A stretch of 64,000 nucleotides of DNA from Sphingomonadales bacterium Ga0077559 (GTDB taxonomy: Bacteria > Pseudomonadota > Alphaproteobacteria > Sphingomonadales > Sphingomonadaceae): positions 1 through 64,000 of the forward strand of contig LNFK01000044.1 in assembly GCA_001464315.1 (NCBI GenBank). The letters run 5' to 3'. Made by a program: the position numbers and the translations under genes. Positions 18,748 through 24,231 of the stretch are shown here, piece by piece; the first letter of the stretch is position 1; the number at the start of each line of letters is the position of its first letter. Below the pieces are notes generated by a model. That model was given only the letters and a program-made list of their open reading frames with translations, searched no databases and was not told the DNA's origin.

Positions 18748-19125
18748 ATGACCAGAATTTTACTAGCCGAGGATGAACAGGCCATGCGGGAATATCTTGC
18801 GCGGGCATTGGAGCGCTCGGGCTATGAGGTAGTGGCGGTCGATCGCGGCACCGAAGCCGCGCCGTTGCTAGAGGCGGAGCATTTCGACCTGCTACTCACA
18901 GACATTGTAATGCCCGAAATGGACGGAATCGAGCTCGCACGCCACTGCAGCAAGGTATCACCAGCCACCGAAGTTATGTTCATCACCGGCTTTTCGGGCG
19001 TTGCCCTGCGTGCAGGCGAATCGATGCCGAGCGCAAAAATTCTCTCCAAACCGTTCCATCTTAAAGACCTCGTGCTCGAAGTCGAACGGCTGTTTGCCAA
19101 GGAAAGTTTCGGCGAACTCAAATAG
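18748..19125 (+). CDS. cpdR: CpdR-type response regulator controlling ClpXP
   Basis: A 125-residue stand-alone receiver domain. Acidic pocket from ILLAEDEQAM, phosphoacceptor Asp in LLLTDIVMPEMDG (near residue 52), Thr/Ser in MFITGFSG and Lys in ILSKPFH. There is no output domain. In Caulobacter, unphosphorylated CpdR docks on ClpX at the cell pole and delivers PdeA and other substrates; phosphorylation through CckA-ChpT turns it off. Length and the KPFHLKDL end fit that family closely. It lies just upstream of tRNA-Val. Confidence 0.88.
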   Translation: MTRILLAEDEQAMREYLARALERSGYEVVAVDRGTEAAPLLEAEHFDLLLTDIVMPEMDGIELARHCSKVSPATEVMFITGFSGVALRAGESMPSAKILSKPFHLKDLVLEVERLFAKESFGELK

Positions 19126-19168
19126 GCTTGAATGATAAGGCAAGCCCAGCTAGAGGCTGCCGCAGCGT

Positions 19169-19243
19169 GGGCGTATAGCTCAGTGGTAGAGCACTGTGTT
19201 GACATCGCAGGGGTCGCAAGTTCAATCCTTGCTACGCCCACCA
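19169..19243 (+). tRNA. tRNA-Val(GAC)
   Basis: A complete 75-base cloverleaf including an encoded CCA. Acceptor stem GGGCGTA / TACGCCC, D-arm TAGCTCAGTGGTAGAGCA, anticodon stem CTGTG / CGCAG with loop TTGACAT giving anticodon GAC (valine), and T-arm loop TTCAATC. The 3' 45 bases are repeated exactly at 23012-23056. The present 3' half is therefore element-derived after integration, with the full tRNA regenerated. Confidence 0.95.
19199..19243 (+). repeat. attL: left 45-bp direct repeat (tRNA-Val 3' end)
   Basis: Identical over 45 bases to 23012-23056. It begins TTGACATCGCAG in the anticodon loop and ends with the CCA of the tRNA. Flanks differ immediately on both sides, so the repeat limits are sharp. 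Confidence 0.93.
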
Positions 19244-19246
19244 CTC

Positions 19247-19283
19247 AAAAGCCCCGGAGAACCAAGGTTCTCCGGGGCTTTTG
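19247..19283 (+). terminator. Terminator after tRNA-Val, carried by the element
   Basis: A perfect 17-bp stem, AAAAGCCCCGGAGAACC / GGTTCTCCGGGGCTTTT, with a two-base loop, 4 bases after the tRNA. It lies inside the element, so the element supplies the terminator of the tRNA it reconstitutes. Confidence 0.9.
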
Positions 19284-19750
19284 TGTATCAGCAAAACTAA
19301 CATTGTGACGCGCAACTTACGCGTGGTTTAGGTGTTGGCCCGCAGATGGCCCGCAAGTTAGAAAGGGCGAATTTAAGCCTAGCGTGATTGACGCATCTAT
19401 CGCGCCGTTGCCCATCGCGATGATTAAAAAAATGGAATTTGGTTCGAACCACAACGGGCCAATTACGACTCGCCAAGCGAGATAATCCACAACTCAGCAG
19501 TTGCTTGACAACGTACCTACCGCCTACTAAGGCCGGAGCGGGCCCCTACATCCAACCCTTGATTCAGTCAAGGAAGTTATACGCGCTTAGTCGTTTTTTA
19601 TCATCAATTCGTCGCAAAACTGTTTGCATTCATCGCGCGGACAGCACATACGCGGTATGATAATCCTTAAATGAAGAGATTCATAAAGGATAATTAGAAC
19701 GTACAAGGAACGTAAACCGTTCTTTAACAGTTCTAAAAGAAGAGATTAAA
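19284..19750. other. Gene-free left arm of the integrated element
   Basis: About 470 bases without a convincing coding frame. It contains the first pair of TGGCCCGCA repeats and AT-rich DNA that probably holds the promoter for the genes from 19751 onward. No other repeat or RNA gene was recognised. Confidence 0.5.
19336..19355 (+). repeat. Left pair of TGGCCCGCA repeats (putative integrase arm sites)
   Basis: TGGCCCGCA at 19336-19344 and again at 19347-19355, 11 bases apart start to start, about one helical turn. The same paired arrangement recurs twice at the other end of the element. The position and spacing fit arm-type binding sites of a tyrosine recombinase; binding itself is inferred. 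Confidence 0.65.
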
Positions 19751-19828
19751 ATGCCCAAGGTTTATTACGACGAAACCAATCTAACGATGCCACTCAATCG
19801 GTATGGTAGAGAAAATCGTCATGGGTGA
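19751..19828 (+). CDS. Possible 25-residue leader or upstream peptide
   Basis: A 25-codon frame beginning MPKVYYDETNL, preceded by a good ribosome site (AGAAGAG, about 7 bases away). Its TGA falls within ATGGGTGA, where the second possible start (19821) of the next gene begins, an arrangement typical of translational coupling. Alternatively the two frames were once one gene and a frameshift separated them. No homologue is recognised. Confidence 0.35.
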   Translation: MPKVYYDETNLTMPLNRYGRENRHG

Positions 19829-20204
19829 AGTTAAAGAGAGCAGGCCTACTGCCTCTAGTCGCAAGCGTAGTGGTGAGGCTGGGGTCACCCCTCGCATTAA
19901 AACTGTGCCCTCAGAAGCGCGAGGCGTAGCCACGAAATCGGTTGCCCAAGCCAGATTGAAGAAGGAACGAGAAATGACTGCTCTAGCCGACCCGCTCGCT
20001 GACCTTCTCTTTGGTCAAGAGCGAACATTAGTGAATTTTAAATTGTTGCGAGGCGACGATCCGCAGGTAAGTGAGAGCGAACTAAGAGCGGAAGCTCACT
20101 CAGCGTTAGTCCAAGTGTTTTTAGAAAATTGCGATACTTTTCCGGATTTTCCAGAAGACAGGTCCGCGAAGCGGATTAATGTGGATAACCTTGTAAACAT
20201 TTGA
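19803..20204 (+). CDS. Element-encoded hypothetical protein
   Basis: 133 residues from the ATG at 19803, or 127 from 19821. The N-terminal half (residues 8-55) is Lys/Arg/Ser/Thr-rich and probably disordered; the C-terminal half (ADPLADLLFGQERTLVNFKL onward) is acidic and likely helical, with DTFPDFPEDRSAKRINVDNL. No known domain is recognised. The local ribosome site is poor, so expression may depend on coupling to the short frame at 19751. A strong terminator follows, so it is transcribed separately from the next gene. Confidence 0.55.
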   Translation: MVEKIVMGEVKESRPTASSRKRSGEAGVTPRIKTVPSEARGVATKSVAQARLKKEREMTALADPLADLLFGQERTLVNFKLLRGDDPQVSESELRAEAHSALVQVFLENCDTFPDFPEDRSAKRINVDNLVNI

Positions 20205-20230
20205 TTATCATCACTTCGATAGATATAGAA

Positions 20231-20261
20231 AACGCCCCAGCCTTGGCCGGGGCGCTTTTTT
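20231..20261 (+). terminator. Intrinsic terminator inside the element
   Basis: AACGCCCC...GGGGCGCTT stem with an internal GCC/GGC extension and six T, 27 bases after the 133-residue gene and 13 bases before the next gene. Confidence 0.88.
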
Positions 20262-20273
20262 AAATGGGGCAGT

Positions 20274-20903
20274 ATGCTTGTAAGCCGACTTTTAGATCAT
20301 TTTGACACGTACACGCTTCTTCACGTTGATGTGAATGCTGTGCGCGATCAGTTGGTCGAAATGGGTATTCAAGATGAAATTAGATTCCATTTTGTAAGGA
20401 TGGATGCCCAAAAAATACGTGGAATCATTTATCGCTACACAAGGCACGCTGCCCCCTACTCCGATCCTATCTACTGTTCCGAAATCATCATTGCCAATGA
20501 TATGGGAGATGAGGACGAATACTGGAAGCGCCTCGTTGCTGTGAAAGAGATGCTACATGTAGCGGACTGCGTAAAGATCAGCGCAGAGACGCAAGATGCA
20601 GTCGGTATATTGTTTAAAAATTTCTCATTGCCACCAGAACTCAGAAACGATCTACATAATGGGGCCAAAAACACTAAGTCTTACTTAAACGATCGTATCA
20701 GAATATTCTTGGCGCTCGCAATATTAATACCCGCAGGATGTCGCGCACCAATAAGAATTTTATTTCAGAACAAAACTTTAAGTGAAAAAGAAATCGCGGA
20801 CATCGCAAAAATACCAGAACGCTATGTCTCTGTAGTAATGGATGAAAACTTCGACGAGAGCATTACCACATTTTTAGAATGGGAACGCGACAATCAAACT
20901 TAA
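20274..20903 (+). CDS. Element-encoded hypothetical protein, possibly a degenerate ImmA/IrrE-like fold
   Basis: 209 residues, AT-rich codons, no signal or membrane segment. I do not recognise a family with confidence. The central IIIANDMGDED...RLVAVKEMLHVAD (about residues 72-98) resembles the active helix of ImmA/IrrE metallopeptidases, but HExxH is replaced by KEMLH. It is followed by a helical block (RIFLALAILIPAGCR, about 143-157) and a segment shaped like a helix-turn-helix (LSEKEIADIAKIPERYVSVV). That layout resembles ImmA-type proteins, which cleave phage or ICE repressors. This is a structural guess from motif order only. It begins just after a terminator, so it must have its own promoter or use read-through. 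Confidence 0.6.
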   Translation: MLVSRLLDHFDTYTLLHVDVNAVRDQLVEMGIQDEIRFHFVRMDAQKIRGIIYRYTRHAAPYSDPIYCSEIIIANDMGDEDEYWKRLVAVKEMLHVADCVKISAETQDAVGILFKNFSLPPELRNDLHNGAKNTKSYLNDRIRIFLALAILIPAGCRAPIRILFQNKTLSEKEIADIAKIPERYVSVVMDENFDESITTFLEWERDNQT

Positions 20904-20981
20904 CACTTGAAAATGAAATTTAGATATTTGTCTTTATTTTGTGGCACCCTAAACGAAACCAAAAAATATTTTCTTCATTTA

Positions 20982-21164
20982 TTACATATTTAACCGGCTT
21001 TCGATTTCTGAAACTCTGCTTTCTAATTCGTTGACTTGGTAAAGTGCATTACGAGCATTTACATCTGCTACGTCTAGCCTGTCTTCCCGTTCAGGTGTGC
21101 AGCTTCCCAGTAATAGCCCTGAAATAATCGTCAGTTCAATTTTAGCATGATTCGTAAAGCACAT
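20982..21164 (-). CDS. Tiny coiled-coil lipoprotein
   Basis: 60 residues. The N-terminus holds a hydrophobic stretch and lipobox (IISGLLLGSC, Cys22), followed by an acidic linker and a coiled-coil end (NELESRVSEIESRLNM). A near-perfect ribosome site, AGGAGG, lies 7 bases before the ATG, supporting real translation despite the small size. By architecture it could be a minor envelope lipoprotein. A role in element immunity or superinfection exclusion is only a guess. Confidence 0.55.
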   Translation of the reverse strand: MCFTNHAKIELTIISGLLLGSCTPEREDRLDVADVNARNALYQVNELESRVSEIESRLNM

Positions 21165-21258
21165 TGTATTGCCTCCTATGACTTGAAACTTACCGCATTA
21201 TTATTGACGCACGCTTACGCACACGGTGGCAGTTAGTGATTATAAAAATCAAGAACAA

Positions 21259-22524
21259 TTAGTCTGACAATTCAGCTATTTTACTTATTTTGCTCCAATA
21301 ATCATGTAGATCAAGCCTTGCAAAATACTCTTCGCAGAGCGGCGTCACGGGTTCACTGTTTTCACGTGACAAGACACCGCAACTGCTGTTCGTCTTCATG
21401 TCCCGATAATGCGTTGCCCGCCAAATATCGGCATGTTCTATGGCCTTATTCCAAATCACCGAAAGAAGCTTCGTCCGATTTGACTCTCGATGGCCTAACA
21501 ACGAGGCAATGCCATCAATCGAGGCACCCTGCGATCTTAGTCGTGTGGCAACCGTATGACGAATAGTCTTGCTCACGACGTCTGGACCAAAATTTAGCTC
21601 GCGACGCATCGTGCGCCATCTTCTCTTCATGGAAGCGAGCGACATGCTTTTTTGTGTGACGAAGTTTCCGTTCGAGCGAATTAGCCATGGTTGAAATTCA
21701 GGAATTATCGGAACAACCGGATTTCGCTTTTTCGTGCGCGGCGCACCGACTGGATGCAAGTCAAGCAAGTGGCGCTCTGGGCGATACTGTAAAGTTGCAT
21801 CCAGCTTTAACGCAGCTTCGGGCCTCATGCCGGTAGCGAGCATTAGCAAAATCCATCTCAATAGCGGGGGATCGAATGCCGCATATCCGATTATCGCCCC
21901 AATTTCCTCCCACTCTAAGACGCGGTCACGAGGGGGAGAACGATATTGTAATTTCAATCTTGGCACTCGCGGAGCAACCTTTATTCGCCCCATGGTAACT
22001 GCGTGGTTCAGCGCCGCTCTTAGGTCATCGAGGTTTTTGCTTACCGTTTCTCCCACCACGCCCTTCGATGATTGTTTGTATACCTTGCCTTGCCAATGAA
22101 CCTCGTAGCTGTGCGGACCCATTCGCCATTCAAGGAAGCGCTGAAACACTCGCGGATTAAGGTCGGATAGTAGAGCATCAACACCAATTTCGTCTTGTTG
22201 AAGAAATCCAATCGAAACCCTCATATTGGCACACAGGCTGCTTGCGCTAATAGCTTTACTCGCGTGTTCATCGGCATATTGTTTCAATACGGGTGCGACC
22301 TGTAAATCTTCGCTTACCGGACCTTGCTCGATTGATTGCTCTGCGTGATACCGGTTTAGTTCTCTTTTGGCGTCTTCGAGGTCCCCGCAAGCAGTGCTAA
22401 TATAGTATCCCGATCTAGTCTGTTTGTTATAGCATCGGATTTGCCAGATGTCCGGCGATGCGCCGTCCTTACGTTTTTCGAGCCAGTGATCGCCGACGAT
22501 GTAGGGGGAAGATTTTCGGGACAT
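21259..22524 (-). CDS. Tyrosine-recombinase family integrase, catalytic Tyr apparently missing
   Basis: 421 residues. The core-binding helical domain spans about residues 75-185 and the catalytic domain about 200-360. Recognisable: Arg234 in TGMRPEAALKL, the beta-hairpin lysines in APRTKKRNP, box II IRHTVATRLR (Arg322, His323) and GH at 344-345 (SLLGHRESNR). In XerD and lambda Int the nucleophilic tyrosine is nine residues after this His; here that position is Leu354, and the nearest Tyr is 373. The protein should recombine the tRNA-Val att sites, but may be inactive or use a displaced tyrosine. Position beside attR and the flanking arm repeats support integrase identity. Confidence 0.85.
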   Translation of the reverse strand: MSRKSSPYIVGDHWLEKRKDGASPDIWQIRCYNKQTRSGYYISTACGDLEDAKRELNRYHAEQSIEQGPVSEDLQVAPVLKQYADEHASKAISASSLCANMRVSIGFLQQDEIGVDALLSDLNPRVFQRFLEWRMGPHSYEVHWQGKVYKQSSKGVVGETVSKNLDDLRAALNHAVTMGRIKVAPRVPRLKLQYRSPPRDRVLEWEEIGAIIGYAAFDPPLLRWILLMLATGMRPEAALKLDATLQYRPERHLLDLHPVGAPRTKKRNPVVPIIPEFQPWLIRSNGNFVTQKSMSLASMKRRWRTMRRELNFGPDVVSKTIRHTVATRLRSQGASIDGIASLLGHRESNRTKLLSVIWNKAIEHADIWRATHYRDMKTNSSCGVLSRENSEPVTPLCEEYFARLDLHDYWSKISKIAELSD

Positions 22525-22679
22525 TGTATTCCAAGCTCCTCATTTTCTGCATTTTGTAGAAGTCGGTATGTGCCGAGGTCCGCAAGCGTTCGAACGTCAT
22601 CTGGCAGCAGGCTCAAAGAGCCGCCTGATTTAAGAGCTTCGCGGAAACGTTCATAAAGGGACTGGATGGGACTCGACAT
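22356..22679 (-). CDS. Small gene overlapping the integrase start
   Basis: 107 residues, beginning MSSPIQSLYERFREALKSGG and ending in a charged tail. It precedes the integrase and overlaps it by 169 bases in another frame. The first 45 residues look helical (DDVRTLADLGTYRLLQ) and the rest polar. GGAGGG lies upstream of the ATG, somewhat far away (about 14 bases). No family recognised; in similar integrative elements a small gene here may encode a directionality factor or regulator, but that is inference from position. Confidence 0.5.
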   Translation of the reverse strand: MSSPIQSLYERFREALKSGGSLSLLPDDVRTLADLGTYRLLQNAENEELGIQCPENLPPTSSAITGSKNVRTAHRRTSGKSDAITNRLDRDTILALLAGTSKTPKEN

Positions 22680-22788
22680 TTGTCGAAGATAGCCCTCCCC
22701 GATTCAGAAATCGCCTGTAATTTTTACTTAACTTATTGATTTGGAATCGTTATTTTAAATAGACTCCATTTTTGTGCATTTACGGCTA

Positions 22789-22897
22789 TGGCCCGCAGAT
22801 GGCCCAAGATCGTTGAAAATCGCTGGTATTTTTGGCATAGTTATTGAAACAAACGGCTCAAAAGCGTTTATTTCGGTTGGCCCGCAACTGGCCCGCA
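22789..22897 (+). repeat. Two right-end pairs of TGGCCCGCA repeats (putative arm sites)
   Basis: Pair 1: TGGCCCGCA at 22789-22797 with a degenerate TGGCCCAAG at 22800-22808. Pair 2: TGGCCCGCA at 22878-22886 and 22889-22897. In both the start-to-start distance is 11 bases, exactly as in the left pair, and all are in the same orientation. Confidence 0.65.
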
Positions 22898-23011
22898 CCA
22901 TTTTATGTGTTCTTTATCTGTCTGCTAAATGTTCATGTTTTGTTGCAGAGGTCGCAACTAGAAAACAACGCTTTTCTGCGGGTCTCCGAGGGCCGCTTTG
23001 TAAATTTCACT

Positions 23012-23056
23012 TTGACATCGCAGGGGTCGCAAGTTCAATCCTTGCTACGCCCACCA
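23012..23056 (+). repeat. attR: right 45-bp direct repeat, orphan tRNA-Val 3' end
   Basis: Exact copy of 19199-19243, without the 5' half of a tRNA in front of it. It marks the right border of the integrated element. Confidence 0.93.
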
Positions 23057-23090
23057 TTTTCCCATAGCCCCAGTATGTCATGCCCCGCAT

Positions 23091-24131
23091 TCATGCCTTG
23101 CTCGGGGCGATTCCGTACCATCTTTTGTGGGCGCGGGTGAATGCGCTCAGATCGCTATAGCCGAGCAGCAGTGCGATTTCGCTTAGGCTCCTTGTGTCTT
23201 CGAGCAAGTATAGCGCGCACAAATCCTGTCGCACCCGGTCGAGCAAATCGCGAAACGCCAAACCCTCATCCGACAGTTTGCGGCGTAATGTCCTCTCGCT
23301 CATGCCGAACGCGGTGGCCATTCGGTCAAGCGTTGGCGGTGTCTTATCAAGCGCATTCGTAAGATAGATATAGCCATTGGCAAGATGCTGGCTGCCATTC
23401 TCCATCCAGTCGGACGGCTGCCTAAGTTTGACCGAAGCTGCCTCGAGCAAAGCAGGATGGGCATGCGGAGATGGTCGGAAAAGCTGACGCGCCGCAATAT
23501 CCATCCGCGTTTGCGGCATCGAAAAACGCACCGGACAACCGAATGCTTTTTCATATTTGTCGGCAGCGTATCGCGGTTGATGCTGAAAATCGAGGACACG
23601 CAGCAACGCCGGTTCCCCTAAGATCTGGCGCGATAGCCGCGCATAGGTCGCGACCGAAAACTCGATAAATGGCGCGTAAGCATCGACAAACTGCGGGTGG
23701 CATTGCCAGATCAAACGCGGCGGCTTTGCCGAAAGATCTATTGATGTAGCGAACATCGTCTGGCGCAATTTCTGGATATGGATGTTCGTGGCAATAACCG
23801 AGGCAAGATTCGCTTCGAGCCGAGTTGCATAGCCAAAATCGGAAAAATTCTGCATCTCGGCGTTGTCGCCAACGCGCAGTAATATCGCCGGATCACCAAA
23901 ATGCTGTTCAATCGATGCCAAGAACCGCAATGCGAGCTGCGCGGAAAACCGGCCCAGCGGATTTCGCAGCGCCGACTCGTCGATTCCGGTCGCCATTATA
24001 ATGGCACGCTTGTCTCCGCCGAGCGCAACCGCACCGCGCAGCAGCCGGACAAGCAGGTTCGCCGACACCGTATTGTCGGCGACTGCGTTGTCGCCGTTCC
24101 ATAATCTCTCGACCCAATCGCTAATCTGCAT
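23091..24131 (-). CDS. AraC-family transcriptional regulator
   Basis: A 346-residue regulator. The N-terminal two-thirds is an Arabinose_bd-type sensor domain (PF12625-like; LANASVIATNIHIQK and EPALLRVLDFQHQPRYA-type stretches), and the C-terminal 95 residues are the double HTH: TLDRMATAFGMSERTLRRKL then SLSEIALLLGYSDLSAFTRA, ending RWYGIAPSKA. Members usually bind a fatty-acid-like or aromatic ligand. It is divergent from an acyl-CoA thioesterase-like gene 100 bases away, which it may control. I use the ATG at 24131; a TTG at 24179 would add 16 residues. Confidence 0.87.
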   Translation of the reverse strand: MQISDWVERLWNGDNAVADNTVSANLLVRLLRGAVALGGDKRAIIMATGIDESALRNPLGRFSAQLALRFLASIEQHFGDPAILLRVGDNAEMQNFSDFGYATRLEANLASVIATNIHIQKLRQTMFATSIDLSAKPPRLIWQCHPQFVDAYAPFIEFSVATYARLSRQILGEPALLRVLDFQHQPRYAADKYEKAFGCPVRFSMPQTRMDIAARQLFRPSPHAHPALLEAASVKLRQPSDWMENGSQHLANGYIYLTNALDKTPPTLDRMATAFGMSERTLRRKLSDEGLAFRDLLDRVRQDLCALYLLEDTRSLSEIALLLGYSDLSAFTRAHKRWYGIAPSKA

Positions 24132-24231
24132 TCTCCCAAGCTGCCGCCTCTGTTCATCATGGCGGCGGACAATGCGCAAGCGGGATTTTGTGCGGGTTGC
24201 CGCCGCAAATAAGTGACGCTAAGCGATTGAG

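Follow-up and report, generated by a model that had tools for sequence, protein, structure and literature searches.

The window analyzed here, a 64,000-nucleotide stretch of the genome of Sphingomonadales bacterium Ga0077559 (contig LNFK01000044.1, positions 1 to 64,000), carries a small genomic island in a valine transfer RNA (tRNA) gene, tRNA-Val(GAC). Judged by sequence comparison, two adjacent open reading frames (ORFs) of this island, at 19803-20204 and 20274-20903, are one conserved module, called R::P1-P2 after its parts. The comparisons also place the module in a family of mobile gene pairs carried by phages, by IS1-like and IS1595-like transposons, and by this island. As an insertion into a tRNA gene, the island is of an ordinary type, and the novelty lies in the rare, widely carried module, which has no name. 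The anatomy of the element is far more certain than the role of the module.

The target of the insertion was the tRNA-Val(GAC) gene at 19169-19243 on the plus strand (Rfam tRNA, 68.6 bits), which is the single tRNA found by ARAGORN within the window; only tRNA exceeded the gathering score in Rfam. The 3' 45 bp of this gene (attL core, 19199-19243, plus strand) recur identically at 23012-23056 (attR core, plus strand) with a start-to-start spacing of 3813 bp, in agreement with the initial annotation, in which a 3.8-kb segment was bounded by an exact repeat of the tRNA 3' end. The low GC content stated there was likewise seen (45.8% for the element, compared to 54.4% and 56.2% for the 2-kb flanks), as were an integrase-family gene and four small ORFs (19803-20204 and 20274-20903 on the plus strand, 20982-21164 and 22356-22679 on the minus strand). 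When 18748-24179 was searched against its own genome, the matches were the region itself, a 75-bp tRNA-like place (83%), the region's own hairpin, and nothing else. The only other exact match to the 45-bp core seen in this genome was the copy at 23012. From these matches and the single ARAGORN tRNA, 23012-23056 is therefore a partial tRNA and no independent gene, which excludes the possibility that the repeats are two independent tRNA copies.

The tRNA-Val gene with the same left flank is kept in 43 of 45 genomes of the genus, our own included. We read the tRNA-Val site at 19 places fetched from relatives, and eight of them (loci L009, L010, L016, L018, L021, L022, L024, and L025) have an empty site, in which the AraC-type gene of the right flank comes next after the tRNA (tblastn, 40-66% identity). 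The tRNA of these element-free relatives runs directly into the right flank, and in L009 and L016 it joins TTTTCCC, with which the right flank begins in the window. The remaining 11 places comprise two with fewer than 400 bases beyond the tRNA (L015 and L019), two in which the tRNA end was undetected by our script (L020 and L027), a large island (L011), and six without an AraC gene within about 1.5 kb. Thus, relatives with an empty site do exist, and the proposed site-specific insertion into tRNA-Val stands. The comparison with these sites shows that site-specific recombination brought a 3813-bp element (counting the core once) into the tRNA-Val(GAC) 3' end. The event rebuilt the tRNA and left the second copy of the 45-bp core. 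A strong terminator-like hairpin borne by the element lies directly behind the tRNA (19246-19282, plus strand; minimum free energy -33.3 kcal/mol, z -8.8, 0 of 200 shuffles). Judged by eye, there is no such hairpin behind the tRNA at the empty sites L009 and L016. In another genome, G399, a second exact 45-bp core is found about 118 kb from tRNA-Val (L031, position 7530; L032, position 15195), and a different integrase adjoins the tRNA; the same site was therefore used by another, larger island.

The integrase of the element (21259-22524, minus strand) is of the tyrosine-recombinase type (phrog_1, 2e-32; PF00589, 2.2e-8). Integrase matches at E 1e-20 or better were found in 15 of 396 genomes of the order, our own included, and the seven closest relatives, with 40-44% identity, were used for comparison. 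All seven adjoin tRNA-Val, with the anticodon TAC in four and CAC in three, and their 3' ends are at most 28 bp from the tRNA or overlap it. In the window, unlike in these relatives, the cargo separates the tRNA from the 3' end of the integrase. The window integrase also lacks 17-21 residues, in frame, after the GH motif and up to the next conserved block (gap near 21480), the stretch in which all seven relatives have the catalytic tyrosine. It keeps the other conserved blocks, and the complete catalytic set of Arg, Lys, His, and Tyr is absent. Since the tyrosine segment is missing, the element is probably unable to excise by itself and is thus probably locked in place. No second att repeat of at least 14 bp was found for the seven relatives within the 15-20 kb fetched.

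Three copies of the pattern TGGCCCGCANNTGGCCC, with up to one mismatch, look like arm sites of this integrase. All are on the plus strand, one near attL at 19336-19352 (TGGCCCGCAGATGGCCC) and two near attR at 22789-22805 and 22878-22894. Across the 2.86-Mb genome, the pattern with at most one mismatch occurs at three places, all inside the element, and the reversed-pattern control gave 0. The pattern was built from these three copies, so the test concerns their uniqueness and not their presence.

The second gene of the module (20274-20903, plus strand) encodes P2, a protein of 209 aa. The core and the cargo were both searched for in relatives, a check named in the initial annotation, and P2 was matched in 4 of 396 genomes of the order. 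A small P2 profile matched 6 of 385 genomes of the class and a larger one 2 of 398 genomes of the phylum, with our own included in each count. DNA-pattern scans for P2 gave 12 viral contigs and 22 genome loci. The P2 family, defined by hidden Markov model searches, has 38 members found here: 37 distinct proteins after the removal of copies, plus L139. Of the 37 distinct loci, 36 have a P1-like ORF immediately before P2 in the same orientation, with a spacing that ranges from an overlap to a gap of about 115 nt; none was found at L061. Seven of these 36 P1 ORFs belonged to the training set of the P1 profile, and L053 (2.1e-3) and L139 (0.044) are weak P1 matches. Two co-directional genes with a small first gene, as in the layout of type II toxin-antitoxin pairs, are therefore present in 36 of the 37 loci.

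The first gene of the window's module, ORF1 (19803-20204, plus strand), is by its profile match, P1 alignment, and isoelectric point (pI) a fusion of R and P1, which are separate proteins elsewhere. It is R-like and basic (pI 11) up to about 19973 and continues as a P1 domain (pI 4.4) from the Met codon at 19974; the median pI of the P1 rows is 4.6. R is a small basic protein encoded just before P1 in L049, L071, L081, L087, and L052/L067. A profile made from three R sequences finds ORF1 at E 3.3e-6 among 8725 ORFs, and the next unrelated ORF follows at 0.77. This is better evidence than a comparison of 30 R residues, which 0 of 10,000 shuffles reached but which was chosen post hoc. No helix-turn-helix (HTH) family matched ORF1 or the three P1 relatives scanned. 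R also occurs alone, at nine places in 8 of 147 genomes of the order, with an IS1-like terminal repeat nearby at eight of the nine and a transposase at four; neither P1 nor P2 was found beside it at any of the nine. In L136, the protein beside R has a Pfam M78 domain (3.1e-6) with an intact HELEH motif. A similar protein in L137 has the motif HEIAH (motif reading only), and in L129-L137, R is near an IS1-like terminal repeat with other passengers, including the Xre/M78-type genes of L136 and L137. A further observation, made by eye in the window, is a 25-codon ORF at 19751-19828 whose ATG is preceded by a purine-rich stretch and whose stop overlaps an in-frame ATG (19821) of ORF1; it could be a leader peptide.

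The vehicles of the P1-P2 pair are of several kinds. Phage structural genes (Pfam) lie near the pair in eight loci (L054, L055, L062, L063, L064, L065, L074, and L139), and in L054 the pair is flanked by a portal and a prohead protease. L071 and L087 are IS1-like transposons with the terminal inverted repeat (TIR) GGTAGTGTCTCAGTTTGAAT at both ends and the 8-bp target-site duplications GAAATTTG and GGCCTCGG; the transposase of L071 has a DDE_Tnp_IS1 match at 1e-6. Of the other IS1-like loci, L049 has both ends, one of them imperfect, and L081 has one. Perfect 25-bp TIRs in L029 enclose an IS1595 transposase (8.7e-37), DUF6471, P1, and P2, and a 6-bp repeat lies outside them. The gene order of L083 is the same, with no TIR detected, and L051 (with L069 and L070) has a similar end with four mismatches. 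The DUF6471 gene was seen near the P1-P2 pair in the IS1595-type loci, at L029 5161-5388, L083 770-994 (by similarity), and L069 5482-5634. In a tree of 35 P2 proteins, the window groups with L064, a phage locus, and L053 (98/95), and the four IS1-borne copies need four changes, which means that they form no common group. A search of the window for the IS1-like TIR, allowing up to two mismatches, gave no match. The presence of the module on phages and two kinds of transposons suggests a role in mobile-element conflicts.

P2 itself weakly resembles the M78 (ImmA/IrrE) family, and we do not claim membership in M78. In the alignment of 35 P2 proteins, K91, E92, and H95 are invariant and position 140 is always E or D; the glutamate at position 140 probably corresponds to the third zinc ligand of IrrE. 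KExxH replaces HExxH in all 35 and in 10 of the 10 members found without the KE pattern, the window included. This invariance is partly built in, since the viral scan and one of the two genome-scan patterns used KE; the statement rests on the 10 members recovered by searches that used no DNA pattern, and the profiles and proteins that found them carry KE themselves. In hhalign, P2 compared to eight HExxH-bearing M78 proteins scored 23.98 (E 0.0066), and the best of 30 column shuffles scored 18.2. These eight came from 30 fetched M78 loci, of which the other 22 were dropped with no ORF passing the HExxH filter. The alignment places KELMH on HELGH and SExxxFWMALxxLCPE on ExEANxFAxxLLMP. In addition, phrog_87, a 'metallo-protease', matches 7 of the 35 P2 members, and each other listed family matches one. 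Several results weigh against this reading of P2 and its module. The hhalign probability for P2 and M78 is only 5.75%, and Pfam M78 had no match in the P2 members scanned. No PDB relative of P2 was found, and such PDB profile matches as P2 and P1 gave were weak, to structures of unrelated types. The PADLOC defence families gave nothing beyond single weak matches. Finally, the window P2 sits on a long branch (end branch 2.53), which also fits relaxed constraint.

RNA hairpins are common between P1 and P2. The gap is at least 30 nt in 19 of the 36 pairs, and 13 of these 19 have z below -3, whereas none of 19 control stretches taken from within P2 does. The window has a hairpin with a T-run in this gap (20226-20262, plus strand; -21.3 kcal/mol), with a z of only -1.8 to -2.1. 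In several members, the 3' arm of the hairpin extends to the start codon of P2, an arrangement suggestive of translational control of this protein. The arm sequences of the strong hairpins, which were seen in L028, L029, L030, L053, L062, L063, L071, L081, L082, L083, L085, L086, and L087, are unrelated.

The other two small ORFs of the cargo are on the minus strand. P3 (60 aa, 20982-21164) has 64% identity over 59 aa to an ORF overlapping the end of repA in two 4328-bp Sphingopyxis plasmid records (pSM103mini), and among 84 genomes of the bacterial family it was found in one, our own. It is possibly a small lipoprotein, given what we take to be a lipobox. The fourth ORF (22356-22679) starts before the integrase and overlaps its start; among 79 genomes of the family it has matches in four others, three of them with an internal TAG. 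The cargo ORFs had no match above chance in Pfam, NCBIfam, or PADLOC. The earlier statement that no cargo gene is recognized therefore holds for these three libraries and fails otherwise, since the cargo has relatives in other genomes, viral contigs, and a plasmid. The module likewise has no name in these libraries, and PHROGs gave only the weak phrog_87 link; it may have been mentioned under a locus name. Scans of viral contigs with the single proteins P2, ORF1, and P3 gave no relative, and neither did tblastn of P2, ORF1, and the central member L052 in INPHARED and PLSDB. The promoter-like count of 11 (shuffles 5.5, sd 2.4) and the terminator-like count of 4 (shuffles 4.4) give little information. 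The earlier view that any one gene might be the entire payload can be narrowed, as ORF1 and P2 are one module, P3 has its relative beside a plasmid repA, and the fourth ORF starts before the integrase and overlaps its start.

We lean slightly toward the following explanation as a whole, a locked island with an exclusion or addiction module. After the element had entered tRNA-Val(GAC), the integrase would have lost its tyrosine segment, and the R::P1-P2 module stayed. P2, M78-like and with one zinc ligand replaced by lysine, would act as effector. P1, which is small and acidic and is made immediately ahead of P2, may hold or guide P2, and the basic R may bind nucleic acid and regulate. As with Xre-COG2856 pairs, the carrier would benefit, either through the exclusion of competing mobile elements or through addiction. 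A defence or exclusion role is plausible in this genomic context; by analogy with known systems, we regard exclusion, defence, or addiction taken together as evenly balanced against other roles. A wider proposal can be made only tentatively, and we think it is more doubtful than not. Here, R-P1-P2 would be an unrecognized class of anti-mobile-element or addiction systems with an M78-type fold, in which an invariant lysine stands for the first zinc ligand and no ordinary zinc proteolysis takes place. P2 would be licensed by the acidic P1 and by an RNA hairpin (in about half of the long-gap pairs). Its members would pass from one kind of vehicle to another (phages, transposons of the IS1-like and IS1595-like types, and tRNA islands) and could outlive a dead vehicle, as in the window.

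Another possible explanation is that P2 regulates its own mobile element, like ImmA of ICEBs1, by acting on a repressor and inducing excision or lysis, with no role against rivals. This would fit the M78-like signal from hhalign and phrog_87, the cleavage of the ICEBs1 repressor ImmR by ImmA as given in PMC2701414, and the S24-type repressor-like gene about 1.3 kb upstream in L056. However, the first zinc ligand of HExxH is a lysine in all aligned P2 proteins, and the settings of the pair also include phage head operons and transposons of unrelated kinds, in which no shared repressor was seen. We therefore consider a purely regulatory role unlikely. The state of the integrase raises the different possibility that the whole island is a decaying relic with cargo that has no remaining function. 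Along with the missing tyrosine segment, the long end branch of the window P2 and its changes at the family positions F97 and C152 could be explained in this way. On the other hand, ORF1 and P2 are open, K91, E92, H95, and D98 are retained, and the 45-bp copies are still identical though one is outside any working tRNA, so complete decay seems improbable to us.

The att sites, the candidate arm sites, the integrase gene, and the small size could also belong to a small active element or phage satellite, as the initial annotation had considered, moving by its own integrase or a helper phage. The integrase comparison, in which the tyrosine block is missing, speaks against this idea. No packaging, capsid, or replication family (Pfam, PHROGs, and NCBIfam) matched the cargo ORFs, in which unknown genes could hide such a role, and the INPHARED tblastn of ORF1 and P2 returned no similar element. 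We give an active element or satellite very little credence. If the favored explanation of a locked island with an exclusion or addiction system is correct, the system is a rare family, nameless in the four libraries searched, with an altered active-site motif and an apparent M78 fold. The island would then be a case of a module that outlasted, in the chromosome, the loss of the tyrosine block from the island's own integrase. The range of vehicles (phage head operons, two transposon families, and a tRNA island) also makes the module a good case for the movement of a gene pair between kinds of mobile DNA.

As an island, the element is similar to other tRNA-targeting islands with tyrosine integrases in its tRNA 3' end attB, direct repeat, arm-type repeats, integrase, and low GC. 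Unlike these, it is only 3.8 kb, has an integrase without the tyrosine segment, and has its cargo between the tRNA and the integrase 3' end. The closest comparison for the module is with the Xre-COG2856 (M78, ImmA/IrrE) pairs, which are described as abundant on plasmids and in phages, with a suggested toxin-antitoxin-like or regulatory role (Makarova et al. 2009, PMC2701414). With these pairs, the module shares adjacent co-directional genes on phages and mobile DNA and a second protein that is M78-like by weak profile evidence. It differs in having KExxH for HExxH, in a first protein, P1, with no HTH family match, and in R, which is a small basic protein of another kind in those loci that have it. 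Toxin-antitoxin pairs are also known as passengers of Tn3-family transposons, according to PMC7157771, and the module resembles these as a small gene pair carried by transposons. The likeness is one of gene layout, as the module is made of other proteins and is carried by IS1-like and IS1595-like transposons.

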